DNA from: Sandaracinus amylolyticus
GTDB lineage: Bacteria > Myxococcota_A > Polyangia > Polyangiales > Sandaracinaceae
Assembly (NCBI RefSeq): GCF_021631985.1
Contig: NZ_CP070225.1
Coordinates: forward strand, 2,046,001-2,110,000
DNA length: 64,000 bases
Reading direction: 5' to 3'
Under the pieces are notes generated by a model. That model worked only from the letters and a program-made list of their open reading frames with translations. It did not search any database and was not told the DNA's origin. Each line of letters starts with the position of its first letter. Positions within the stretch are counted from its first letter, which is position 1. Both the position numbers and the translations under genes were made by a program. This document shows, one piece after another, positions 52,479 through 64,000 of this stretch.

Positions 52479-52529
52479 CGCTCCCCCTTGCGCTCCGTCC
52501 GTGTCTCGCTGGTCGCAGCACCAGCGAAG

Positions 52530-52574
52530 CGGGCTCTACAGGATTCGAACCTGTGACCTTCGGCTCCGGAGGCC
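52530..52574 (-). tRNA. 3' half of tRNA-Arg(CCG), probable left attachment site
   Basis: On the minus strand CTCCGGA (anticodon loop with CCG) is followed by variable loop AGGTC, a perfect T-arm (ACAGG-TTCGAAT-CCTGT) and acceptor strand AGAGCCC plus discriminator G. The 5' half is absent: the anticodon stem stops pairing after 3 bp on the right side. Such a remnant is expected where an element integrated in the 3' end of a tRNA gene. The intact gene should lie at the other end of the element, outside the window. Confidence 0.8.
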
Positions 52575-52576
52575 CT

Positions 52577-52849
52577 GTGGATTCGGAGCCCTCACCGACG
52601 GTTGCGCGGAGCGTGGACCGGGTCGTGGACCGGGGTCAAGAGCTCGCGCGCGCGGTGCTGCTGACGTCGTCGCCGGACGCAATGGTAGCGCTCGCCGATG
52701 CGGTGCTCGACACCGAGCATGTCCGCCTCGCGCTCGAGGTGCGAGCCGGTGGACCGCACGCTGCGCGCCGGGCGATCGAGCTCGCCGTGCTGGTGCTCTC
52801 CGAGGCGTCCCCTGCGCTCGCCGCCGCGCGCGGCGAGACCCCGCCCTAG
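52577..52849 (+). CDS. Hypothetical short protein next to the attachment site
   Basis: The open frame runs from 52553, but its first codons lie in the tRNA remnant, so a start at GTG 52577 or GTG 52613 is more likely. The body is helical: VVDRGQELARAVLLTSSPDA, MVALADAVLDTEHVRLALEV, RRAIELAVLVLSEASPALAA. No family recognised, and the start is uncertain. Confidence 0.35.
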   Translation: MDSEPSPTVARSVDRVVDRGQELARAVLLTSSPDAMVALADAVLDTEHVRLALEVRAGGPHAARRAIELAVLVLSEASPALAAARGETPP

Positions 52850-52966
52850 CCCCTTCGCGACGCCCAACGGCCCGCGTGGTGCGGACTCGTCGGCGTCGCT
52901 ACCGCCCCGGCCGGTACGCCGGGATCACGTCGTGCGAGCGCCAACCCGCACGCGGGAGGTAGTGCC

Positions 52967-53374
52967 ATGTGTAACGAGCCCACCACCGATCGGCCGAGCG
53001 ACGTCGCGCTCGCCATGCAGATCGCCGCCACCATCGCCGCCGCAGCGCCCCCGGACACCCGCTGCGCGTTCCGCATCGCCTCGGCGATGGGCGTGCCGGC
53101 GGTCGTCCTCCCCGACTGTGACCCGCCGAACGCCTGCTACTTCTCCGAGCTCCCGCATCCGAGCTTCCGCAGGCTCACCGGCTGCGCCGACGCGACTGAG
53201 CTGGTCATCGTCTACGCCGCGCCCGGTGCCGATACCGAGGCGGTGCAGGCCGAGGTGCTCGCCGGCCTCGTGATGCGCGAGGCGCGCCGCGTCGGCCGCT
53301 CGCTCCCCGAGGACGCGATCGACACGGCGGTGTCGCTGATCCTCGCCGCCCTCGAGCGCGAGGTGTCGCGATGA
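52967..53374 (+). CDS. Hypothetical protein, first of a coupled trio
   Basis: A 135-aa protein with a good ribosome-binding site (GGGAGGT) before ATG 52967. It starts MCNEPTTDRPSDVALAMQIA, has a Cys-containing middle (LPDCDPPNACYFSELPHPSF), and ends in a helix (DTAVSLILAALEREVSR). The stop overlaps the next start by 4 bp (ATGA). No function can be given. Confidence 0.55.
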   Translation: MCNEPTTDRPSDVALAMQIAATIAAAAPPDTRCAFRIASAMGVPAVVLPDCDPPNACYFSELPHPSFRRLTGCADATELVIVYAAPGADTEAVQAEVLAGLVMREARRVGRSLPEDAIDTAVSLILAALEREVSR

Positions 53375-53481
53375 TCGCGCAGCTCGCCGCGATGGTCTGC
53401 GCGGAGATGGGCCCCGCCGTCTCCGACGTCTACCGCGTCGCCATCCGACACGGCTGGCTCACCTATAACGGTTATGAGTGA
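53371..53481 (+). CDS. Hypothetical 36-aa protein in the coupled trio
   Basis: A frame from ATG 53371: MIAQLAAMVCAEMGPAVSDV, then YRVAIRHGWLTYNGYE. It overlaps the gene before it by 4 bp and the one after by 8 bp, which supports translation although it is too short for a usual ORF search. Possibly a helix-turn-helix-like fragment, but this is only a guess from the size. Confidence 0.4.
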   Translation: MIAQLAAMVCAEMGPAVSDVYRVAIRHGWLTYNGYE

Positions 53482-53710
53482 GGCTCTGACCTTCCCGACG
53501 AAGGGCTGCGAGACGTGGCAGGGCCTCGATGTGCGCGTCTACGACGGCGCGCCGACGGTCCTCGGGCGCACCGTGTTCGTGCCTGACGTACCCGAGGACG
53601 AGCAGCGTGCGGCGGCGCTTTGGGGCGTGTGCTGGTGGCTCCTGCGCAGCGCCCTCGATCGCGACCCGACCGAAGTGGAGATCGACGCGCTCGCGTCCGC
53701 GCTCAACTGA
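53474..53710 (+). CDS. Hypothetical 78-aa protein, last of the coupled trio
   Basis: A frame from ATG 53474: MSEALTFPTKGCETWQGLDV to DRDPTEVEIDALASALN. A Trp-rich stretch (LWGVCWWLLRSAL) could be a hydrophobic helix. The stop lies in the stem of a perfect hairpin, so transcription of the trio probably ends here. No family recognised. Confidence 0.5.
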   Translation: MSEALTFPTKGCETWQGLDVRVYDGAPTVLGRTVFVPDVPEDEQRAAALWGVCWWLLRSALDRDPTEVEIDALASALN

Positions 53711-53730
53711 GGGGCTCATCCCCTCAGTTG
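53704..53730 (+). terminator. Perfect hairpin terminator of the small trio
   Basis: The arms CAACTGAGGGG and CCCCTCAGTTG enclose the loop CTCAT and are followed by TTGTGATG. An 11-bp perfect stem with the stop codon in its left arm. Both the stem and the following T-containing stretch suit an intrinsic terminator. Confidence 0.8.
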
Positions 53731-53746
53731 TTGTGATGATCACAAC
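53730..53746. promoter_or_regulatory. 17-bp perfect palindrome upstream of a phage lipoprotein gene
   Basis: GTTGTGAT and ATCACAAC mirror around a single G. The centre lies about 68 bp before the ATG at 53806. It resembles the half-site TGTGA of CRP-type operators but has a different spacing, so a phage repressor site is equally possible. Confidence 0.5.
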
Positions 53747-53805
53747 GGACGGCGTTCATCGCCGTGTCTGCGCTGAGACGCGCTACGCTCAGCCTCGGAG
53801 GGGCG

Positions 53806-54252
53806 ATGCGCGGAACACTCGGGCTCGTGGCGCTGGTGTTGGTTGGGTGCGGCGACGGCGGGGCTCGCGTGGTCGAGCCGGACGCCGCGCCGGCCAACAC
53901 AGTCGAGACCTACGTGGGCGAGCTCGTGCGGCGCGTCGACGGTGTCGAGATGACGGTGTCCGATGCGGTCGTGGAAATCGTCCCGACGGCGGATGCGGTG
54001 GTCACGATCGACGGGTGCACGTTCAACGCTCCGTACGCGCCCATCGAGGGCGACCCCCGACGCGTATGGGGTTTCAATCTCGGTGACCGGATCGCCGAGT
54101 GCGAGACCGGAGGCGGCGCTGTAGTATCGGCGTTCGTTCGAGACGCCGATCTCGACCTACAGATCGGCGTGCGGCTGCGTGCGAGAGTGACGATCGAGCG
54201 CCCTGACGACACGACCGTCACCGTCGAGTTTGAGGGCGCGCGCGCTCCCTGA
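53806..54252 (+). CDS. Phage-region lipoprotein
   Basis: A 148-aa protein from ATG 53806 with CGGAGGGG upstream. The signal peptide has a lipobox (LGLVALVLVGCGDGG). The mature part is beta-rich: TVETYVGELVRRVDGVEMTV, VVEIVPTADAVVTIDGCTFN, LDLQIGVRLRARVTIERPDD. Lipoproteins in prophages can act in superinfection exclusion or host surface change; that is a guess. It converges with the tail-like gene, with the stops 1 bp apart. Confidence 0.6.
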   Translation: MRGTLGLVALVLVGCGDGGARVVEPDAAPANTVETYVGELVRRVDGVEMTVSDAVVEIVPTADAVVTIDGCTFNAPYAPIEGDPRRVWGFNLGDRIAECETGGGAVVSAFVRDADLDLQIGVRLRARVTIERPDDTTVTVEFEGARAP

Positions 54253-54253
54253 C

Positions 54254-57052
54254 TCACGGGGCGAACCGACGAGCCGGGACCCCGTCGGCGCCATCGTCGA
54301 TCCGCATGTCCGGTCCCGCGATGAAGGCGTGCCGCTCGCGCTGGCTCGCCGTCGCGACGTTCGCGGAGTCCCACAGCAGCACGTAGTCGTTGCCGCCGGT
54401 GCCGCTCCACGACGACGTCAGCGTCACGCCGATGTCGTTGCCGGCGATGCTGGTGATGGTGCCGTTCCGCTGCGTCGGCGTGTCCGAGTCCCACTCGTGC
54501 AGACGGATCGCGTCACCCACGCGGAAGTAGCTCGCGTCGGTCTTTCCCGCGGGCGCGTAGTACGTCCCGGCGAGCGTCAGCGTCCACGACGTGCCCGAGC
54601 CCGACGCGCTGTTCACTGAGCCGCTCGGCGCGTACGTGGGCAGGTCGACCCCGGTGATCAGCACCGTGAGGCGACCGACGCAGCTGGCGATCTCGGACCA
54701 GTCGCGGCCGACGACGATGGCTCGCGCGCCCCGCATCCCGCGCAGCCCGGTCGGGTCGTTCACGGCGCGCGCGCCGTTGTAGGGCATCGCGTCCGACGAG
54801 ATGAGCACCGAGTCGCCCACGAGCACGTTGAAGTGCCGAAGCGAGACGGGGAACGAGTAGTGTCGGATCGCGCCGCCGAAGAGCGTCAGCACGGGGTTCG
54901 CGATCTGCATCGCGCGCTCGGTGGTGAGGCGCTCGCCCGCGACGTAGAACGACGAGAGCGGGGCGATCTCGAGGACGCGCTCTTTGCGCGCCTCGCTCAT
55001 GCCCTCGACGTTGCGCACGCGGATCGAGCCGCGCGTGTGCTTGCCCTCGATCGGGTCATAGCCGAGCTTGAACTCGACCACGTTGACGTTCCCGTCGCTC
55101 CCGCTCGTGAGCTGGCCGAAGCCGTCGACGTCGAGCAGCGTGCCGCCCGCGTTGCTGAGTACGTGCGAGTCCGGCACAGGTTGCGTGTCGATCGTCAGCG
55201 GGCGCAGAGCGATCTTGAAATCGGCGTCGAGGTAGAAGAACACGCCGTGCAGCATCGCCTCGTGCTCGAGGACATCGTCGAGGCGCACGCCCTCGCGGAA
55301 CGCGTACTGGCGCTCGCCGTAGAGGTGCGGCTGGATGTTGACGATCTCGTCAACCACCGCGGTCCAATCCGCGAGATCATCGTCGAGCACGAACGGCGCG
55401 CCGCCGACGTTGGCCACCTCGGGCGCTGCGGCGACGAGCTCGTCGCGGAAGCCGGCGAACGTCGTCCCCTCGGACGCGGCGGGATACTTGATCGCCGCCG
55501 CGATGGTCTGCGACTGCGTGCCGGCGACGAGCAGTCCGAGCGGGCGCACGCCCTCGCAGACCACGCCGCCCGTCGACGGGTCGACCGTGTCGATCTGGAA
55601 GGCGCGCGCGGGGACGTCCTCGGCTGCACCGAGCTCGGAGATCAGGAGCGTCGCGTTCGCGGTGAGGCCGCTGACGGAGTTCAGGTGCACGCGCGTCGTC
55701 GGGAACGACGCGACGTCCGCGGCGCTCGAGTGCGCCCACCCGGTGGACGGCGCGTTGATCGTGCGCGGCTCACGCCGCATGTCCGCGAGCGGCACGAAGG
55801 GCGGGCGCCAGCCCGCGAAGCCCCACGCGATCTCGCCGAAGAGGCCGGCCGGGAGCGTGAACGCGGCGACGCTCATGTCGTCGCCCCACAACACCGTGTA
55901 GGTCTGGTTCGCGGCCACGCTGTCGAGCGCGACGAGGATGCGGCCCGCGCCAAGCGGATCGACCAGCTCGCCCACGCGGCCGTTGAAGTAGCCGTCGACC
56001 GGTCCACCGCCGAAAAGCTTCGGGTACCGCGCCGGGCTCGGGACGCGCACGTTCAGCTGCCAGGCCGAGGCGTCCGCCGTGTACGAGAAGACGAAGCCCC
56101 AGCCCGCGATCGTCGGGTCGGCGTTCAGCGCCGCGCAGAGCGCCTCGCAGAAGTCCTTGTTCGTGCGGTAGAAGCCGCAGATCTGGATCTTGACGTCGCC
56201 CTCGTAGGCGTCAGCGGACAGGTCCGAGAGGCTGCGCCGCACCCAGATCGTGTAGGCGTACGCGCCGGGGTAGTAGACCCCCGCGACCTGGCGCTTGACG
56301 TCCAGCTCCGCGCCGAGCTCTTGCGCGAGGATCGACCACCGCGAGTCGATGTTGATGATCCACGTGGTGGCCTCGCCGCCTTCGAGCTGCGGGTCGTTCA
56401 GGATGACGCCGCGGAAGATCAGCGTCCCCGTGTCGCCCACATCGAGCTCGTCGGCCCCGTGCGCATAGACCCAGATGCGCCGCCCGATCCACGTGCTCGG
56501 GAAGTCGCGCAGCGCGCGGATCCTCGGCGTGCCGTCGGTCGCCTCCACGGGATGGCGCTGAGCGGTCGTGCGCCACTGCGCGCGCTCGACGATCGCCGTC
56601 GTGCTGTCGCTGATCGACGCGATGCGCACAACCTCGGTGTCGAGGTGGAGATACTCGTCCTCCGCGAGCCCGACGGTGCTGTTGAGCACGGCCGTCGTGT
56701 CGGTGAACGGGTCGGGGCCGAGCGTCGTTGCGAGCCACGCCTGGGGCTGCGGGATCGGAGTGAACATCGACGTTGCTGCGTCGAGGTCGGCGCCCGGCGT
56801 CTCGACGATGCGCAGCGGCGACAGGCCGATGTCGATCTTCGCGCCTGCGAGGTAGGCGCTCTCGGTGAATCCCACGCTCTCGCGGAGGAGGCCGTTGACG
56901 CGGCGCACGCCGAGTTGCCCTGACTCGGTGCACGCGCCGCTCATCTCCTCGCAGGTGACGAACTCGAAGGGCGCGCCCTCGACGACGAGTCTGAACTCGA
57001 CCCCATCGCCGCCGACGCCGGTCGCGATCACGTTCTGCCACGTGCCCATCAC
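54254..57052 (-). CDS. Large phage tail-like (tail hub/baseplate) protein
   Basis: A 932-aa protein. Its style is beta-rich and Trp-rich as in siphophage tail hub proteins: FRLVVEGAPFEFVTCEEMSG, STWIGRRIWVYAHGADEL, GTLIFRGVILNDPQLEGGEA and TWIINIDSRWSILAQELGAE occur in the first third. The last part (GTSWTLTLAGTYYAPAGKTD, FRVGDAIRLHEWDSDTP) looks like a tip domain. The start is GTG 57052 or ATG 57049, overlapping the previous stop. Its position at the end of a long minus-strand operon downstream of terminase fits a structural gene. Assignment is by style, not by a diagnostic motif. Confidence 0.5.
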   Translation of the reverse strand: MMGTWQNVIATGVGGDGVEFRLVVEGAPFEFVTCEEMSGACTESGQLGVRRVNGLLRESVGFTESAYLAGAKIDIGLSPLRIVETPGADLDAATSMFTPIPQPQAWLATTLGPDPFTDTTAVLNSTVGLAEDEYLHLDTEVVRIASISDSTTAIVERAQWRTTAQRHPVEATDGTPRIRALRDFPSTWIGRRIWVYAHGADELDVGDTGTLIFRGVILNDPQLEGGEATTWIINIDSRWSILAQELGAELDVKRQVAGVYYPGAYAYTIWVRRSLSDLSADAYEGDVKIQICGFYRTNKDFCEALCAALNADPTIAGWGFVFSYTADASAWQLNVRVPSPARYPKLFGGGPVDGYFNGRVGELVDPLGAGRILVALDSVAANQTYTVLWGDDMSVAAFTLPAGLFGEIAWGFAGWRPPFVPLADMRREPRTINAPSTGWAHSSAADVASFPTTRVHLNSVSGLTANATLLISELGAAEDVPARAFQIDTVDPSTGGVVCEGVRPLGLLVAGTQSQTIAAAIKYPAASEGTTFAGFRDELVAAAPEVANVGGAPFVLDDDLADWTAVVDEIVNIQPHLYGERQYAFREGVRLDDVLEHEAMLHGVFFYLDADFKIALRPLTIDTQPVPDSHVLSNAGGTLLDVDGFGQLTSGSDGNVNVVEFKLGYDPIEGKHTRGSIRVRNVEGMSEARKERVLEIAPLSSFYVAGERLTTERAMQIANPVLTLFGGAIRHYSFPVSLRHFNVLVGDSVLISSDAMPYNGARAVNDPTGLRGMRGARAIVVGRDWSEIASCVGRLTVLITGVDLPTYAPSGSVNSASGSGTSWTLTLAGTYYAPAGKTDASYFRVGDAIRLHEWDSDTPTQRNGTITSIAGNDIGVTLTSSWSGTGGNDYVLLWDSANVATASQRERHAFIAGPDMRIDDGADGVPARRFAP

Positions 57053-57303
57053 GCCACCCCCGCGCGCAGCGCGCGCCGCGCAGCCTCAAGCCATGCCCTC
57101 GGTGCGACGAGCACCGGCTTCGGGTGCCCGCTGAGGTAGAGCGCGCACCGCTGCGCGCGCTGCGCGTACGCCTCGATCTCGGCGATGCCGATCTGCCGCT
57201 TCTCGAGCGGGGGCTCGACGTCGAAGCCGCCGCGGGCGGTCGTCACGATCACCTCGATCACCACGTCGCCGAGGAGCGCGGCGAACACCCTGTGCGGCCT
57301 CAC
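57049..57303 (-). CDS. Small phage protein (84 aa)
   Basis: Frame from GTG 57303: VRPHRVFAALLGDVVIEVIV, ARGGFDVEPPLEKRQIGIAE, YAQRAQRCALYLSGHPKPVL, then an Ala/Arg-rich helix. Overlaps of 4 bp at the start and 1 to 4 bp at the end with its neighbours support it as a real gene. No family recognised. Confidence 0.5.
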   Translation of the reverse strand: MRPHRVFAALLGDVVIEVIVTTARGGFDVEPPLEKRQIGIAEIEAYAQRAQRCALYLSGHPKPVLVAPRAWLEAARRALRAGVA

Positions 57304-57731
57304 GCTGCCTCCAGCATCGGCGCCGCGAGCGCCTCGAGCGTGCGCGCGTCGATCGGCGCGCTGGTGTTGTGGTGGCCGTAGACGCGCCCTCCGCGCGACG
57401 TCGCGATCGCGCGCGAGAGCTCGTCGTGGGTCGCGATGCGCTGCGCGTTCGGAGGGGCGTGCTCGGCGCGTCGATAGAGCCGCAGCTCGCCGTGCGCGAC
57501 GACGAGGACGCCGAGTCGGCGCTCCACGTCGGCGCGTTGCTGCGCGCGCTCCGCGGCGCTCCACGCGGCGTCGGCGGTGCGTCGGTCCTCGCAGCGCTTC
57601 CGGAAGACCTCGACGAGGTCCTCGCCGGGCTTCGCGTTGAGGATCTGCGCGACCTTCGCGATCGTCCGCTGACGCTCGGCCTCTTTCGCTTTCGCGCGTG
57701 CGCGCTGGCGGGCGCGGGCGTTGATGAACAT
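57300..57731 (-). CDS. Hypothetical phage protein with coiled N-terminus
   Basis: A 143-aa protein from ATG 57731: MFINARARQRARAKAKEAER begins a basic coiled helix (to about residue 75), followed by a mixed C-terminal part (LGVLVVAHGELRLYRRAEHA, IATHDELSRAIATSRGGRVY). The start overlaps the previous gene by 1 base and the end overlaps the next by 4. No match to known tail or head proteins by eye. Confidence 0.5.
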   Translation of the reverse strand: MFINARARQRARAKAKEAERQRTIAKVAQILNAKPGEDLVEVFRKRCEDRRTADAAWSAAERAQQRADVERRLGVLVVAHGELRLYRRAEHAPPNAQRIATHDELSRAIATSRGGRVYGHHNTSAPIDARTLEALAAPMLEAA

Positions 57732-57973
57732 CACGCGGCCTCGTTCTGCGCGAGCACGCGGTACGCCCGACGGAGCCACCCATCAGGCGTGATGAGCGCG
57801 GACGCGTGCGCGCCGTCGTAGATGCGCCGATGCATGCTGCCGATGTCGAGCGCCTCGAGTGCATCGGCGTGCCGAATACGTCGTGCCTCGACGACGTAGC
57901 AGGGCCGCGAGTGCTGGTTCGTGATCGCGACCTCGTGCCGGCCGTCCGAGCACTTCCAGAGCTCGATCCTCAC
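57731..57973 (-). CDS. Small phage protein (80 aa)
   Basis: Frame from GTG 57973: RIELWKCSDGRHEVAITNQH, YVVEARRIRHADALEALDIG, DGAHASALITPDGWLRRAYR. Starts within the previous gene's stop (GTGA overlap) and ends overlapping the following ATG. The mixed strand/helix pattern is typical of small phage accessory proteins. Function not known. Confidence 0.45.
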   Translation of the reverse strand: MRIELWKCSDGRHEVAITNQHSRPCYVVEARRIRHADALEALDIGSMHRRIYDGAHASALITPDGWLRRAYRVLAQNEAA

Positions 57974-58200
57974 GCGAGCACCCGCGGCGTGCTCGACATC
58001 GCGACGGGGTGCACGCGCTCGACGGCGTGGCGCGCGCGGCGATCGATGATCATCGGCAGCTCGGCCGCGGGCTCCGCGAGTCCGAGGGCGCAGAGACGAT
58101 GAGCGGCGTCGCGATCGCACTCGATCGTCGCGCCTGCGGGGTGCAGCACGCCGGTGCGGTCGCGGTAGTCCGCGTGCAGCTCGATGCGGATGCGGGTCAC
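57970..58200 (-). CDS. Small phage protein of the hinge/KOW-like type (76 aa)
   Basis: Frame from GTG 58200: RIRIELHADYRDRTGVLHPA, GATIECDRDAAHRLCALGLA. The order of strand, HPAG turn and helix (with a pattern like x-YxxG-x-I-x-V-x-x-x-x-A-x-x-L) recalls short phage proteins near structural genes, one of which is repeated in the next gene. A link to head-tail joining is inference. Confidence 0.45.
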   Translation of the reverse strand: MTRIRIELHADYRDRTGVLHPAGATIECDRDAAHRLCALGLAEPAAELPMIIDRRARHAVERVHPVAMSSTPRVLA

Positions 58201-58493
58201 GGGCGCGGCCCTCGACGCTGCGCGTCCTGCTCCACGAGCGCAGCGAGCATGGCTTCGCCGTCGCTCGGCTCTCCGAACGGCCAGCCGTTCGCCGATTCGC
58301 GCGACAGGATCGAGCGGTCGAAGGCCGCATCCGGCCGACCGGCGCGCGTCCCGATCGTCAGTGCATCGGTCGTCTGCTCGGCGACGCCTTTCGCGATGAG
58401 CCCCTGCGCCTGTGAGGGCGACACGGTGACCACGCGCGAGGGCCACAGCACGAAGCTGTTGATCGAGACGGTGTCGAGGATCTTGATCCGCAT
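58197..58493 (-). CDS. Small phage protein of the hinge/KOW-like type (98 aa)
   Basis: Starts MRIKILDTVSINSFVLWPSR and continues VVTVSPSQAQGLIAKGVAEQ, the same strand-turn-helix arrangement as the next gene downstream, then a Trp-containing C-terminal tail. Stop overlaps the following GTG by 4 bp. Function unknown; the pair could be structural. Confidence 0.5.
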   Translation of the reverse strand: MRIKILDTVSINSFVLWPSRVVTVSPSQAQGLIAKGVAEQTTDALTIGTRAGRPDAAFDRSILSRESANGWPFGEPSDGEAMLAALVEQDAQRRGPRP

Positions 58494-58496
58494 CGG

Positions 58497-58688
58497 TCAC
58501 TCCGGGTCGAGCGGCTGCTCGGCGTCGACGACGACGGCCATGCCCTGCCTGACGAGCGCGGTGCCGAGGTTGTCGTGGACGACGATCTCGCGCTCCGCGG
58601 CGTTCTGCGCCGACGAGCGCAGCAGGCTTTGCAGGCGCTGCGCGTTGATGGCGCCGGTGAGGAAGTGGTGGTTGATTCGAACTCGCAT
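58497..58688 (-). CDS. Small phage protein (63 aa)
   Basis: Starts MRVRINHHFLTGAINAQRLQ and continues SSAQNAAEREIVVHDNLGTA. There are two helices and one short strand. It lies in the same head-to-tail series, 3 bp before the next start and 12 bp after the larger gene. No function recognised. Confidence 0.45.
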   Translation of the reverse strand: MRVRINHHFLTGAINAQRLQSLLRSSAQNAAEREIVVHDNLGTALVRQGMAVVVDAEQPLDPE

Positions 58689-58700
58689 GTGGTCTCCTGG

Positions 58701-59810
58701 TCAGCGGCGCATCGCGCGGAAGCGCTGCTCCAAAACGTCGGGGTCGCCGTTGATCGAGGCGCGCCACCCCTCCGCATCGCGGCTATTCCCGAGCCCGATG
58801 AGGTGATAACGGTCGAGGGCCTTGCTCGCTGCGCTCCACGCGCGCGCCCATCGAGTGCCTTCGACGACGCCCTCGAGCGCGAGCTCGATCGCCTCGTGCA
58901 GAGCTTCCCTCTCCGCCCCGGTGCGGGCGCCGGGCGCTCCGGCGGCAACGCGCCAGCGCAGCCCCTGCGGGTCGAGACTCGCCTCGATCCAGCGCGACCA
59001 GCACGCGGCGTGACCGAGCTGCGGGACGATCGCGAACCGCACGCCGTCGTTAGACCCGCCGACGTACGCGCCGACCTCGTCGAGTTTTCCGGACCAAAGG
59101 CCGGGGCGATACGTCGAGCACGCCCCGATCGTCAGCGGGTCCCCGCAGTCGTCGACCAGGATGCGTAGCGCCTTGAGCGCCGTCGCCGTGTCGAGGCCCT
59201 GGACGAGCGGGCGATAGCCGACGAAGCGGCGGCCCATCGTCTCCTGCTCGGGCGGGAGATCTTCGGTGACGAGCTCGATCAGCGAGTAGGGGTTGAACGC
59301 GTCGGGGATCGCTCGCGCGTCGCGCCAGCGCTCGACGGCGCCAGGTGCTCCGGCCTCGCTCGCCTCGCGGAGCGCCTCGAGCGCTGCAAAGGTAGCGTCG
59401 TCGACCTCACCGGTCGCGAGGAGCAGCGCGGCATCCGCTGCCCAGGTGAGCGCGCGCGTCGCCTTGCCGGCGCGGAGCCCGGCGTGCGCACGGGGCGCGA
59501 GCATCATCAGCGCGCGCGCGTCGCTCTTCTCGAACGCGGCGGCGAGCTCGCCCCCGATCGCATTCTTCGGATCAATCGCGCGGGCCGCGGCGATCGCGCG
59601 GGTCACGACCCCGTGCAGATCGACGGTGCCGGCCTCGAGCGCGGTGCGCGCGATGTCGTGCTCGGCCTTGATCTCGCTCCACGCGAGCGCGGCGTCGGTG
59701 CCGGCGGAGAGCGTTGCTCGCGCAGCATCATCGCCGCCGATGCGGCGTGCGGCTCGCCACGCGAGCGAGGGCTTGAGGGTCGGAGTCCAGGCGGTATTCG
59801 GCGTGCTCAT
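58701..59810 (-). CDS. Hypothetical 369-aa phage-region protein
   Basis: Frame from ATG 59810. The first 200 residues are mostly Ala-rich helices (RIGGDDAARATLSAGTDAAL, EHDIARTALEAGTVDLHGVV), the rest a mixed domain (YRPLVQGLDTATALKALRIL, VRFAIVPQLGHAACWSRWIE). It is the largest gene between terminase and the tail-like gene, and would be the position of a portal or capsid, yet it resembles neither. The exact role is unknown. Confidence 0.5.
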   Translation of the reverse strand: MSTPNTAWTPTLKPSLAWRAARRIGGDDAARATLSAGTDAALAWSEIKAEHDIARTALEAGTVDLHGVVTRAIAAARAIDPKNAIGGELAAAFEKSDARALMMLAPRAHAGLRAGKATRALTWAADAALLLATGEVDDATFAALEALREASEAGAPGAVERWRDARAIPDAFNPYSLIELVTEDLPPEQETMGRRFVGYRPLVQGLDTATALKALRILVDDCGDPLTIGACSTYRPGLWSGKLDEVGAYVGGSNDGVRFAIVPQLGHAACWSRWIEASLDPQGLRWRVAAGAPGARTGAEREALHEAIELALEGVVEGTRWARAWSAASKALDRYHLIGLGNSRDAEGWRASINGDPDVLEQRFRAMRR

Positions 59811-59836
59811 TCGGCGTTCCTCGGCGTTGGTGGGAG

Positions 59837-60415
59837 TCAGCCCCGCGGGCGGAGCTGACGACGGATCTCGGCTGCGACCTCGGCGTCGCGGACCGCCTCG
59901 GCCTGCGGCGTGCCGCCGAGGTCGGGGCGCCGCTCGCGCACGCGCAGCACGGCGGAGTAGGCGAAGTGGCGGAACGACTCGCTCGCGTGATCGGGGAAGT
60001 GCGCGGCGATCACGCGATCGGCGACCGCGTAGTCGGGGAGCTTCGACGGGTGCACCGCGTGACGCGCCGTGGTCGTGCTCGCCGTGGTCACCGGCGCGAT
60101 GGTCGCGATCGACCGCACCTCGGCGTCGATGTTCGGGCGAACGCGGCGGAGCTCGCGCGTCGCGACCGCGTAGAGCCGGTGCTCGGGCTCGTTGGGGTAC
60201 TTCGCGCGAGCGCGCTCCATGTGCGGCGCGAGCGCAGCGGCCATCCGCTGGTTCGCGAGGAAGTACCCGAGCTGCTTGTCGTTGAGGATCTCGACGCGGC
60301 GGCGCGCGAGGTGCGCGCGCGACTCCTCGGACATCCGAGCGATCGTCGGGTGCTTGTCGACGATGGCGCGCATAAAGCGCGCGGCTTCGATCTCGAGGGC
60401 GGTGCGGTTCGACAT
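59837..60415 (-). CDS. Hypothetical 192-aa phage-region protein
   Basis: Frame from ATG 60415. Helical and basic: MSNRTALEIEAARFMRAIVD, RRRVEILNDKQLGYFLANQR, HLYAVATRELRRVRPNIDAE absent in any family I know, then HPSKLPDYAVADRVIAAHFP. Possibly nucleic-acid binding from the charge. The 138 bp upstream to the HTH gene hold nothing obvious. Confidence 0.45.
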   Translation of the reverse strand: MSNRTALEIEAARFMRAIVDKHPTIARMSEESRAHLARRRVEILNDKQLGYFLANQRMAAALAPHMERARAKYPNEPEHRLYAVATRELRRVRPNIDAEVRSIATIAPVTTASTTTARHAVHPSKLPDYAVADRVIAAHFPDHASESFRHFAYSAVLRVRERRPDLGGTPQAEAVRDAEVAAEIRRQLRPRG

Positions 60416-60553
60416 GCGGGGCTCCGTGTGGGGCCGGCGCGCCGTCGACCACGCCGAAGAGGTCGATGCGCGCCGGGCCCGATCACTTGTCTTGCGCGTC
60501 GATCGCGATGGGGCACGGATGTTGGGTCCGTCGTGTCCGCCCGCGTCCGTCGA

Positions 60554-60760
60554 TCACGCCGCGTCGGGACCGAGCAACCACTCGCGGTCGACCTGCCACG
60601 GGCCCTTCGGCGTGACCTGCCACGCGGGGATCGTCTTGCTCCTGATCAGGCGCCGCACATGGCGCGTCGAGCGCCCGAGCACGCGCGCAGCCTCGGCGAC
60701 GTCGACGCCTGCGCGCGGCTTCCCGTCGGCGCCGATCCACCCTCGTTCGACTTCGGTCAT
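60554..60760 (-). CDS. Small helix-turn-helix (excisionase-like) protein
   Basis: A 68-aa protein from ATG 60760: VDVAEAARVLGRSTRHVRRL is a clear helix-turn-helix, followed by IRSKTIPAWQVTPKGPWQVD and REWLLGPDAA, the wing and end of the MerR/Xis-type small DNA-binding fold. It may regulate the element or act as excisionase-type directionality factor. It has a preceding short leader MTEVERGWIGADGK. Confidence 0.7.
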   Translation of the reverse strand: MTEVERGWIGADGKPRAGVDVAEAARVLGRSTRHVRRLIRSKTIPAWQVTPKGPWQVDREWLLGPDAA

Positions 60761-60779
60761 GAGTTGGTCTCCTCGGCGC

Positions 60780-61184
60780 TCATGGCCGGCCATTGACGGC
60801 GTCGAGCAGCTCTTCCGCGGCCTCGTCCATGTCGGCGAGCGCCTCGATCGCATCGTCGCGCAGCTTGCAGAAGTCGTGGGCGAGCTCCTCGGCGTCGTCG
60901 TCCGAGAGCTGCGCCGCGCTCGCCGCAATGCTGCCCTGCGGTCCCGTCGCAACGGTCAGCCGGTCGCGAATCGAATTGAGCGCAGCTGCGAGCTCGGTCG
61001 GCAGCGCCTCGCCGATCATCGGCCAGAACGTGTCGGCCGCGTCGCGGATGCGCTCGCGCAGCGGGAGCGGGCTTACCGCCATCCCGTCGATCGCGTCGCT
61101 CAACTTCTGCGCGAGATCCTCGGTGTGGTTGCGAAGCGTTTCGGGGTCGTGGTCGTGGTCGGTCATCTCATCTCCGGTGGTCAT
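60780..61184 (-). CDS. Acidic hypothetical phage protein
   Basis: A 134-aa acidic protein; start ATG 61184 overlaps the terminase stop by 4 bp (ATGA), and an ATG at 61166 is the alternative. It contains HDHDPETLRNHTEDLAQKLS, RERIRDAADTFWPMIGEALP, DDDAEELAHDFCKLRDDAIE. Its Asp/Glu-rich helices might mimic or bind DNA-protein complexes; not recognised. Confidence 0.5.
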   Translation of the reverse strand: MTTGDEMTDHDHDPETLRNHTEDLAQKLSDAIDGMAVSPLPLRERIRDAADTFWPMIGEALPTELAAALNSIRDRLTVATGPQGSIAASAAQLSDDDAEELAHDFCKLRDDAIEALADMDEAAEELLDAVNGRP

Positions 61185-62578
61185 GCTGCGAAAACTCCTC
61201 CAAGGCGGTCTGCCGCCGAGCCGTCGCCGGTTCCTCGCGCTCGCCCTCGCGGGCCGCTCGACGTGCGAAGCATCGAGTGCGAGGTCACAAGGCAGTCCAC
61301 CGCGTCGTCGTTCTTCCCGTGGGGGAACGCGGTCACCTCGCGGACGAAGTCGTTCGTCCAGCGCATGCCGCGGGGCACCGCGATCTCGCCGCGCGACCAG
61401 CACGCCGCCGCGGGCTGCGCCCTGCTGAGCTTGTCTTCGCGCGTGGTGATCACGCAAATTCGGCACCGCGCCTCGCGCTCGAGGAGCGGCACCACGCCGG
61501 CCTCGTGGCCACCCGCAGCCCACCCGATCGGCGCGCCCGGGTAGCGTGCGGAGAATGCGGCGAGCTCCGGCGCGAAGCGGTCGATCGAGCACTGCACACG
61601 CAGCACGTCGAGCACGTAGTAGCGGCGCGTCGGCGGGTGGTAGCCGAGCGCGAGGATGCAGCTGAAGTCGGCCGAGGCCTTCAGCGAGTACGCGAGGTCG
61701 ATCGCGATCGCGATCCGCATCTCCTCGGGCTTCGGGATCGTGATGCGATCCACGAGCACGACGTCGCGGAACGACTGCGCCTCGGCCGCGATCGGCTCGC
61801 ACATGTAGAGCGAGGTCCAGTCGCGCGCGCCGATCTCGTCTCGCGTTGCGTGGAGCACCGGGGTCGGGTGCATCTCGGGCCACGTCGACTCGCCGGCATC
61901 GTCGAGCGCGGTGATGCGGATGTGCCGGTAGCCGTTTGCGATGCAGAACGCGGTGAGGTCGCTCGGGTTCCACGGCGTGGAGACGACGAGGTTGATCCAC
62001 GGCACGTCGACGCGCGTGCGGCTCACGCTCTTGTGCGAGTCGATCGTGCGCTCGCGGATGGTCGCGGACTCGGCTGCCGCTCGGTCAGCACAGAAGTCGT
62101 CGGTGCAGATGAGGTCGCAGCGGAACCCGGTCGCCGTGCCGCCACCGAGGCCCGAGGCGAGCACGTAACCGCGCCCGCCGAGCACTCGGAAGAAGCCGGC
62201 GCTCCGCTGCGTCGGGTCGATGGAGCGGCCCGTGTGCTCGGCGACGAGCTGCCGGATGTCGTAGACGTGCGAGCGAGCGAGGCGAGCGGAGTAGCTGCGG
62301 AGGATGGTGCGGAAGCCCTCGTCGGACCGCTGCGAGCACCACGCCGCGAAGCGCTTCGCGATCGTCGACTTGCCGAAGCCGGGCGGCATCGTGACGACGA
62401 TCGAAGAGCACTCGCCAGCGTCGCGGCGATCAGCGGCCTCCTGCAGCTCGTCCACGAGCCCGTCGAGATGTGGCGGCACGGGTCGCCCATCGAGGCGCTC
62501 GTTGAACGCGCGGAACGTCTCGGCGGCGCGCTGGCGCCGCGCGAGCTCGGCGCGAGCGGCGGCTCGACCGACCAGCAT
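61181..62578 (-). CDS. terL: Phage terminase large subunit
   Basis: A 465-aa DNA-packaging motor. The ATPase has Walker A MPPGFGKST (residues 64-72) and a Walker B-like DLICTDDF (155-162). The C-terminal RNase H-like nuclease has the first acidic residue in IAIAIDLAYS (Asp294) and a last one in GKNDDAVDCLV. It starts at ATG 62578, overlapping the TerS stop by 1 base (TGATG). This gene is the best proof of a phage origin. Its presence without a recognisable portal next to it is unusual. Confidence 0.88.
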   Translation of the reverse strand: MLVGRAAARAELARRQRAAETFRAFNERLDGRPVPPHLDGLVDELQEAADRRDAGECSSIVVTMPPGFGKSTIAKRFAAWCSQRSDEGFRTILRSYSARLARSHVYDIRQLVAEHTGRSIDPTQRSAGFFRVLGGRGYVLASGLGGGTATGFRCDLICTDDFCADRAAAESATIRERTIDSHKSVSRTRVDVPWINLVVSTPWNPSDLTAFCIANGYRHIRITALDDAGESTWPEMHPTPVLHATRDEIGARDWTSLYMCEPIAAEAQSFRDVVLVDRITIPKPEEMRIAIAIDLAYSLKASADFSCILALGYHPPTRRYYVLDVLRVQCSIDRFAPELAAFSARYPGAPIGWAAGGHEAGVVPLLEREARCRICVITTREDKLSRAQPAAACWSRGEIAVPRGMRWTNDFVREVTAFPHGKNDDAVDCLVTSHSMLRTSSGPRGRARGTGDGSAADRLGGVFAA

Positions 62579-63156
62579 CACGGCTCCCCCGCGAGCGCGA
62601 GAAGCTCGGCGTCGGTCATCGCACGCAGCACGCGCGCCTCGCCCGCATCGAGGTGCTCGAGCACGCGCTCGCGAACGTCGGCCGGGAGCTGCGAGAGCAG
62701 GAGGGCCCTGGCGCGTGCCCGCTGCGTCTCGCTCGGCGGCGCGCCCGCGGCGATCACCAGCTTCGCAGCCGCCATCACGACGGCCTCGGCGACCGGCTCG
62801 CCGCCCTCGTTGAAGCGCCGGAGGACCGCGCGGGCGGCCTTCACCGCCTCGACGCGTCCCGCCTCGGCCTCGAGCAGTGCCTCGGCCCGCAGTGCCTCGC
62901 GAGCGGCGACGACGGCCGCGGCGAAGCCGGGGTGAGCGCGCAGCCATCGCACCTGGCGCTCGCTCCGATCGACCTTCGCGCCGATCTCGGCGTTGGTGTG
63001 CCCGAGGGCCGCGAGCCTCGCGATCTGCTCCGCGAGACGCGCCTGGGTGGGCGTGAGAGGCGAAACCTTGCCGCCCCGGGGCGGTAAGGTTTCCGACTCG
63101 CCGCCGACGTCGTTCCGGTCCACTGCCGCCCCCTCGGGGCGCCGTGTCGCCGTCAT
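62578..63156 (-). CDS. terS: Terminase small subunit-like protein
   Basis: A 192-aa protein just upstream of terL with a helix-turn-helix: ARLAEQIARLAALGHTNAEI then GAKVDRSERQVRWLRAHPGF. A long helical part (EALLEAEAGRVEAVKAARAV) and a C-terminal tail (MTDAELLALAGEP) follow. TerS proteins bind the packaging site and hand DNA to TerL. Near its N-terminus the coding DNA holds a 32-bp palindrome. It starts at ATG 63156, overlapping the gene upstream by 4 bp (ATGA). Confidence 0.65.
   Translation of the reverse strand: MTATRRPEGAAVDRNDVGGESETLPPRGGKVSPLTPTQARLAEQIARLAALGHTNAEIGAKVDRSERQVRWLRAHPGFAAAVVAAREALRAEALLEAEAGRVEAVKAARAVLRRFNEGGEPVAEAVVMAAAKLVIAAGAPPSETQRARARALLLSQLPADVRERVLEHLDAGEARVLRAMTDAELLALAGEP
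63062..63093. repeat. 32-bp palindrome inside the terS gene
   Basis: The arms GAAACCTTGCCGCCCC and GGGGCGGTAAGGTTTC mirror with a single mismatch (G-T). It encodes SETLPPRGGKVS of TerS. Candidate functions: packaging recognition site, operator, or inserted small repeat. Confidence 0.8.
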
Positions 63157-63428
63157 CGCGACTTCTCCGGGGCGATCGAGGGCGAGGGAGCCTCTCGCAG
63201 ATCCAGATCAGGGGTGCGATCGTGCGAGGGGGAAGTCGCACCGCGGATCGACCCGTCATCTTTTTCCGCCCCCACCCGGGCGGGCACACGCTCGGCTGCG
63301 ACGGCCGCCGACACCGTGTGCCGTGATCCGTGTGCCCCCCTAAGGGGGCGGGCACACGGGCACACGCTCACACGACCGTGTGCCGGGCACACGGTGGGAA
63401 CACGCTGGGCACACGCTGCCGAGAGCAT
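63153..63428 (-). CDS. Small protein gene containing GGGCACACG iterons
   Basis: A frame of 91 aa from ATG 63428 (GTG 63431 also possible): MLSAACAQRVPTVCPAHGRV, SVCPCARPLRGAHG. It overlaps the replicative ATPase gene by 1 to 4 bp (TGATG) and terS by 4 bp (ATGA), so it is coupled on both sides. The first half is encoded by iteron-like repeats, which give a recurring RVP/CPAHG wording. It may be a true protein, or the coding frame may be only passing through a replication origin. Confidence 0.5.
   Translation of the reverse strand: MLSAACAQRVPTVCPAHGRVSVCPCARPLRGAHGSRHTVSAAVAAERVPARVGAEKDDGSIRGATSPSHDRTPDLDLREAPSPSIAPEKSR
63282..63416. repeat. Cluster of GGGCACACG / CGTGTGCCC iterons, candidate replication origin
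   Basis: About nine copies in both orientations within 135 bp, near 63282, 63315, 63329, 63350, 63358, 63377, 63386, 63398 (degenerate) and 63407. They include a perfect 21-bp palindrome ACCGTGTGCC-G-GGCACACGGT (63375-63395) and a larger inverted repeat around CCCCTAAGGGG (63328-63360). Iterons beside a replicative ATPase gene suggest an origin or an operator. Confidence 0.75.
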
Positions 63429-64000
63429 CACGCCGCCCCCTCGTCCGAGTCGTCACCGCGCGCTGCGACTGCCCGGTAGGGCTCGCGCCCTCCGCCGGTG
63501 ATCCGGCCGTGAGCGAGCAACCACGCGATGGCGTCTTGCTTCACCGCGTCGCGACCACGCACCAGGGCGCGGAGTTGTCGTTGACCGACGACGTCGGAGG
63601 GGTGACGCGCGAGGGCGAGCAGGAGAGCCCGGCCCACCTCCTCGACGCGTGCGGCGTGCACCGCGTCTCGGTCGTCGTCCCCATCCCCCTCGTCGTCCGG
63701 CACGTCGACCTCGCTCACGCTGGCGCGGGCGTGATCGATCTCGAGGCGGAACGTGGTGCCCGTGCCGCCGAGCCGGCTCTTGGGCACCAGTGCGTCGATG
63801 GTGGATGGCTTGCCCTTCGGCGTCGTGAGGGCGAGCAGCACGTCGCACTGGTATTCGATCGCGCCGGTCTCCTTCCCCGACGCGAGCGGGTCGGAGTTGG
63901 GCACGCCGCCCCCGCGGTAGCCCGAGCGCGCCATCTCGCTCGTCGCGAGGATGAGCAGCCCGTGTGCGCGAGCGGCGTTGCGCAGCGTGTCGATCACCGC
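63428..64000 (-). CDS. RecA/DnaB-like replicative ATPase (5' end outside window)
   Basis: The C-terminal part of 190 residues is visible. It has GLLILATSEMARSGYRGGGV, then ASGKETGAIEYQCDVLLALT (like the DnaB/AAA_25 strand with a gap before it), and LVPKSRLGGTGTTFRLEIDH. The Walker motifs lie beyond the window. A last acidic linker and winged-helix-like end (AVKQDAIAWLLAHGRITGGG) follow. Such ATPases act as replicative helicases or loaders in phages and satellites. The gene reads through the right edge, so it is incomplete. Confidence 0.7.
   Translation of the reverse strand, partial: AVIDTLRNAARAHGLLILATSEMARSGYRGGGVPNSDPLASGKETGAIEYQCDVLLALTTPKGKPSTIDALVPKSRLGGTGTTFRLEIDHARASVSEVDVPDDEGDGDDDRDAVHAARVEEVGRALLLALARHPSDVVGQRQLRALVRGRDAVKQDAIAWLLAHGRITGGGREPYRAVAARGDDSDEGAA

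Follow-up and report, generated by a model that had tools for sequence, protein, structure and literature searches.

An attP placed inside a gene, through which integration alters the gene's product, is a familiar arrangement among phages of the BPs type. In mycobacteriophage BPs and its relatives, whose immunity depends on integration, the phage protein changed by recombination at an attP within its gene is the repressor, as outlined in PMC4557955. Bacterial integrases that alter themselves have been described for the Myxococcus phages Mx8 and Mx9: the attP of Mx8 lies inside int, which receives a new 3' end upon integration and encodes an enzyme that stays active in an altered form (Tojo 1996, Magrini 1999, as summarized in the review PMC6070905), and a similar principle is stated in the same review for the Mx9 Int (Julien 2003). 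In archaea, the "suicidal" integrases of the SSV type carry the recombination site within their own gene; integration splits this gene, and the divided enzyme has no activity (PMC8371274). A review from 2021 treated self-disrupting recombinases as exclusively archaeal.

The element investigated here was found in a 64-kb window (the whole stretch of DNA that was analysed, bases 2,046,001-2,110,000 of a 10.75-Mb chromosome, C1, in a genome of 10.96 Mb). Its integrase gene is divided by its own attP and carries a tail from a family conserved across a myxobacterial order, and is as such a variant on what Mx8 shows. The two systems share the location of attP inside int, and a tandem repeat spaced 11 bp to the left of the Mx8 core is found in the same place as here, whereas the target tRNA, the element and the tail family differ. 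In the Mx8 Int (genome AF396866), the core reads ...STGLEPVLLG, which is tRNA-antisense-like, followed by a tail of approximately 105 aa. No homology was detectable between this tail and the one studied here (a bits-type score of 33, reached by 334 of 1000 shuffles; profile E 0.11). The integrase of the element thus appears to work like that of Mx8 with a tail not detectably homologous to it. In contrast to the BPs-type phages, the altered protein is the integrase itself, and in contrast to the SSV type, where the catalytic part is cut off, the catalytic domain remains whole and only the C-terminal tail is exchanged; integration does not part the catalytic from the N-terminal portion of this enzyme. 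A literature match for attP within int in Plasmaviridae proved to be a match of words only, and was discarded as false.

Ends of the element and its tRNA target

The first-pass annotation had placed a 3' fragment of tRNA-Arg(CCG) at 52530-52574 and taken it to mark the left end of an integrated element. The fragment is real and is located on the minus strand, and an exact repeat of it is present at the far end of the element; its location was correct, and its length was one base short at the left, the exact repeat unit being 46 bp (52529-52574). The second copy, which has no mismatch (C1:2114355-2114400, window-equivalent 68355-68400), was found beyond the window edge inside an intact tRNA-Arg with anticodon CCG, predicted by ARAGORN at C1:2114355-2114429 on the minus strand. 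No intact tRNA was detected by ARAGORN within the 64-kb window. The annotation's expectation of an intact tRNA-Arg(CCG) at the far end was thereby borne out, with the identical sequence 15,826 bp to the right. This copy-to-copy distance is the length of the element, of which the last 4.4 kb lie, together with the intact tRNA, past the right window edge. When up to three mismatches were allowed, a 31-bp core occurred in only two places in the 10.96-Mb genome, and an identical 46-bp pair in such a position is far beyond chance. In an Rfam search of 50-64 kb, the only matches were sub-threshold, namely a tRNA-Sec overlapping the fragment and a spurious miRNA.

The genes on the two sides of the fragment are of different kinds, chromosome-type and phage-type, just as had been annotated. 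To the left, chromosomal-looking ORFs with IscS/IscU/HscA/ferredoxin-like translations were recognized by eye at 43.8-48.6 kb; to the right are found terminase, a DnaB/RecA-like ATPase, Cro-like and Xis-like genes, and the integrase. The latter, a tyrosine integrase anticipated beyond the right edge, is located beside the intact tRNA (Pfam Phage_integrase, E 2e-13; PHROG integrase, E 5e-41). Just to the right of the tRNA, the first chromosomal gene past the element, as judged by eye, encodes a 795-aa secreted-looking protein with RCC1-like repeats (L003, 17482-19869).

An empty site was found in another member of the genus with a complete genome (G155), in which the joined flanks of the element gave one continuous match (477-base query, 86% identity) carrying an intact tRNA-Arg(CCG). 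At the thresholds used, neither the integrase, the tail nor the terminase had a match in G155. The empty site and the lack of matches to these genes in the same genome thus indicate that the element was inserted at tRNA-Arg(CCG). Integration into the 3' end of the tRNA by a tyrosine recombinase, as originally proposed, is supported by the end repeats, one copy of which lies in an intact tRNA, by the integrase adjoining one end and by the empty site of the relative. The tRNA fragment was thus correctly read as a mark of integration, which on its own is ordinary. The features of the element are collected in Table 1.

Table 1. Features of the element that lie in the window, given in window positions.
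Feature	Position	Strand	Basis or remark
In-window part of the 15,826-bp element	52529..64000	.	Continues to window-equivalent 68354
attL core, 3' half of tRNA-Arg(CCG), a displaced chromosomal piece	52529..52574	-	Exact 46-bp repeat and copy in intact tRNA
Stranded integrase C-terminal tail, 91 codons and stop	52574..52849	+	Continues the integrase frame through the core when the element is circular; homologous tails elsewhere; helical model
Two CGTGGACCG arm-type repeats, tail side of core	52612..52632 (at 52612 and 52624)	+	Inverse copies CGGTCCACG at window-equivalent 68317 and 68327, integrase side
Large protein, 931 aa; probably virion or tail	54254..57049	-	25% identity to a protein of a second prophage on the same chromosome
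Helix-turn-helix protein, 68 aa, excisionase-like; candidate directionality factor	60554..60760	-	PHROG 66, E 4e-5
Terminase large subunit	61181..62578	-	PHROG 38, E 3e-66
Probable terminase small subunit	62578..63156	-	Weak matches and position beside the large subunit
DnaB/RecA-like ATPase	63428..64000	-	Gene start beyond the window, to about 64657

The integrase gene and its attachment site

In the prophage form, the integrase ORF encodes 468 aa (C1:2113017-2114423, plus strand) and abuts the intact tRNA-Arg(CCG). The catalytic domain identified by Pfam spans residues 234-413 of this form and is complete, with the invariant tyrosine of the catalytic motif approximately 40 residues ahead of the core. 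The ORF terminates within the antisense of the tRNA (...NRAGSTGFEPVTFGSGG-RRSIQLS), the seven residues RRSIQLS being encoded by antisense tRNA. When the repeats were joined in silico as by excision, the frame was found to run on through the core to give a protein of 552 aa, and the 91 residues gained correspond to the ORF directly to the right of the fragment. The attP core is thus placed within coding sequence with the codons in frame on both sides, as in the Mx8-type integrase. Judged from the sequence, the attachment site is located inside the integrase gene and the left-end ORF is the displaced C-terminus of the integrase; integration thus swaps the last ~90 residues of the enzyme for 7, leaving the catalytic domain whole, and excision would rebuild the 552-aa gene. 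In tblastn searches against phages, the 552-aa integrase gave no match, and the integrase of a relative matched only weak Gordonia and Microcystis integrases.

Open-frame length had been a candidate line of support for the tail gene and was dropped, as 90-codon open frames are common in this DNA: in a control, 40% of the positions in the element preceded at least 90 open codons (P 0.40). Since long open frames are this common, the evidence for the tail must be comparative. The abundance of such frames in the GC-rich DNA, together with the frequency with which integrases in these genomes, including related ones of the same class, end in tRNA antisense, would also agree with ordinary tRNA-targeting, in which the integrase reads by accident into the tRNA antisense and the left-end ORF is an unrelated small gene or no gene at all. 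We consider this explanation highly improbable in light of the comparison of elements described below.

Four further elements were found with both ends on one contig, in tRNA-Asn(GTT) (G185, 39,980 bp), tRNA-Arg(CCT) (G188, 42,695 bp), tRNA-Thr(CGT) (G022, 5,328 bp) and tRNA-Arg(TCT) (G292, 34,549 bp). Together with the element described here (G000), these five complete elements occupy five different tRNA genes, and in all five the reading frame of the integrase stays open through the core and joins that of the tail from the opposite end. Four of the five tails match the conserved family. The alignment scores of the tail pairs G000/G185 and G185/G188 were reached by none of 1000 shuffles and that of G000/G188 by two of 1000, while the G292 tail matched a 27-row tail profile with an E of 2e-10; for the short tail of G022, no homology to the other tails was detectable by alignment and shuffles. 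The G000 and G185 tails differ at codon positions 1, 2 and 3 in 19, 17 and 32 of 58 cases, respectively, a pattern as would be expected of a conserved protein. Homologous tails at the opposite ends of elements in different tRNA genes, in frame each time, argue against ordinary targeting. Among 13 further tail loci that were checked, both ends were present on one stretch only in G292, and the others reach contig edges or exceed the stretch examined. The direct repeat of G292 is 145 bp long and extends ~100 bp past the tRNA, so that it also covers sequence of the integrase linker and the arm sites; the end of an earlier element may be present on the chromosomal side.

The reconstructed attP contains two copies of CGGTCCACG, 10 bp apart, on the integrase side of the core and two of the inverse, CGTGGACCG, 12 bp apart, on the tail side. 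In 9 of 11 attP sites of different elements, one or both sides bear a tandem spaced by 10-12 bp, of which an inverted copy lies opposite, beyond the core. The motif of the arm repeats differs from element to element, and for each of these nine attP sites the observed arrangement was matched by shuffled flanks in at most 1% of trials (6-base words). By their arrangement, the attP repeats look like arm-type integrase sites. The integrase fold resembles those of the lambda Int and the Tn1549 Int, with arm-binding, core-binding and catalytic parts (Foldseek E about 2e-8), and the arm-type sites flanking the core are a further likeness to these systems; the lambda and Tn1549 Int structures end soon after the catalytic domain, however, whereas the integrase studied here has an extra tail without a PDB match. 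In the model of a full-length relative from a viral contig (L095), the arm-type repeats and the att core fall in the integrase ORF at a stretch modelled as a disordered linker.

Taken together, we consider it very probable that the locus holds a prophage-like element in tRNA-Arg(CCG), with attP inside the integrase gene, whose two products would act as a switch that is set by integration. The tyrosine recombinase would insert the element into the 3' half of tRNA-Arg(CCG), using an attP made up of a tRNA-identical core and flanking arm-type repeats and located in the stretch coding for the linker between the catalytic domain and the helical tail. Crossover at the core, as the sequence shows, leaves the 468-aa ORF at the right end next to the intact tRNA and strands the 91-codon tail beside the fragment at the left. 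The long form, encoded by the circle, would be suited to integration, and the short form, encoded by the prophage, would still be catalytic with its activity changed; integration itself would set the switch, and excision would reset it. The tail exchange likely serves to switch the activity of the integrase, which we infer because of the precedent of Mx8, with attP inside int and a prophage integrase that is altered yet active. Against this reading, the lysogen might produce the stranded tail as a peptide of its own.

Even without the tail, the catalytic domain is whole, and compact integrase-site modules have been proposed for the archaeal suicidal integrases (PMC8371274), both of which would fit a module of site and enzyme that is compact and has no regulatory role, where attP does lie in the gene and the tail serves folding or stability or is dispensable. 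We regard such a module as the less probable case, considering the order-wide conservation of the tail at the protein level and the changed behaviour that the exchange gives to the Mx8 enzyme, as reported in the review (PMC6070905).

Spread and structure of the tail family

When a profile of three tails was searched against the genomes of the class, matches were found in 64 of 317 at E<=0.01. With a 27-tail profile and a sample of 377 genomes of the phylum, matches were confined to the same order at E<=1e-4. A tRNA T-arm motif was located at most 260 nt upstream in 20 of the 29 tail loci with enough upstream DNA, compared to 0.2 expected from shuffles, a count that is favoured by some profile matches taking in core residues, although many begin well past the core. 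Most tail loci have no integrase of the family studied here upstream and thus represent the stranded form.

Uninterrupted forms were encountered in viral contigs, in which integrases were found by an alignment-based search; scans of these contigs with single integrase and terminase proteins gave no matches. An integrase continuing without interruption through a tRNA-like core into ~70-130 more residues is encoded by L088, L089, L090, L092, L095 and L098 (L095, L096 and L097 are the same protein and were counted once), and the cores of L090 and L092 read, by eye, as the 3' half of tRNA-Arg(CCG). In L088, L089, L090, L092 and L098, the tail fell below the acceptance level of the tail profile, so these contigs display the fused architecture and not the same domain. 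The conserved tail itself is fused to an integrase in L095, L084 (in which no T-arm motif was found) and L077, and these fused forms, with the conserved tail and the integrase in one ORF, largely refute ordinary targeting. As different elements read the core in different frames, the tail has repeatedly been kept in frame.

Some of these loci deviate from the general pattern. In L077 (G210:C126), the integrase to which the conserved tail is fused is a tyrosine integrase of another kind, with the motif YDFRHS, which suggests that the tail is exchanged between integrase families. The sequence upstream of the tail resembles the integrase linker in L062 (G164:C155) and a frameshifted integrase C-terminus in L067 (G189:C93); these two could be fused forms that have broken, elements in tandem or errors in the sequence. 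In the IMG/VR contig L091, the integrase is in frame 0 and the adjoining tail in frame 2, which may reflect a frameshift, an error in the sequence or expression by some other mode.

No NCBIfam model, and no convincing one from Pfam, covers the tail family. The tail of the element described here, modelled alone, consists of four to five helices (pLDDT 81), and a PDB fold search with it returned nothing significant. The AlphaFold2 model of the full-length relative L095 comprises a confident catalytic core, a low-confidence linker (residues 399-466) and a helical tail. It is conceivable, if not quite an even prospect, that these proteins constitute an order-wide class of bacterial integrases with a previously undescribed helical tail that integration takes away and excision gives back, so that a DNA rearrangement would serve as the directionality switch, with attP and the arm sites encoded in the linker of the enzyme. 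The arrangement occurs in many elements, with a conserved tail that phages carry attached and prophages carry stranded, and these two natural forms make the control of direction testable. The arrangement also accounts for small left-end ORFs and for integrase endings such as ...RSIQLS in annotations, and the stranded tail can serve as a marker for locating hidden ends of integrated elements.

Gene content and nature of the element

Compared to the gene set of a complete tailed prophage, the terminase is present in the element, and no capsid or portal gene was recognized by Pfam or PHROGs among proteins of which some remain without assignment. Furthermore, a 369-aa protein of the element has no relatives in the class or in the phage collection. 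These observations, together with a length of 15.8 kb, which is small for a tailed phage, would be compatible with a decayed and immobile prophage remnant whose split integrase has no present function. Such decay is the less probable reading, as the 46-bp repeats are identical and the integrase, the terminase, the regulators and the large structural gene are all open; the split-tail architecture is moreover found in many other elements and is hence not a product of decay.

As a whole, the element could represent a small phage that has diverged strongly, a satellite or a remnant. Its small size and the lack of recognized capsid genes fit a satellite of the PICI-like kind, and a larger prophage, whose terminase and tail-like protein are related to those of the element, is co-resident. 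This second prophage, at about 4.0 Mb on the same chromosome (L243/L244, C1:3995000-4034799), carries a terminase with 28% identity to that of the element, a recognizable major head protein and a homologue of the 931-aa protein; should the element be a satellite, this prophage could be its helper. Near the left end of the element, a 162-aa lipoprotein-like ORF (53764-54252) is encoded on the plus strand, opposite to the structural genes, and is by eye a possible cargo (lysogenic conversion) gene.
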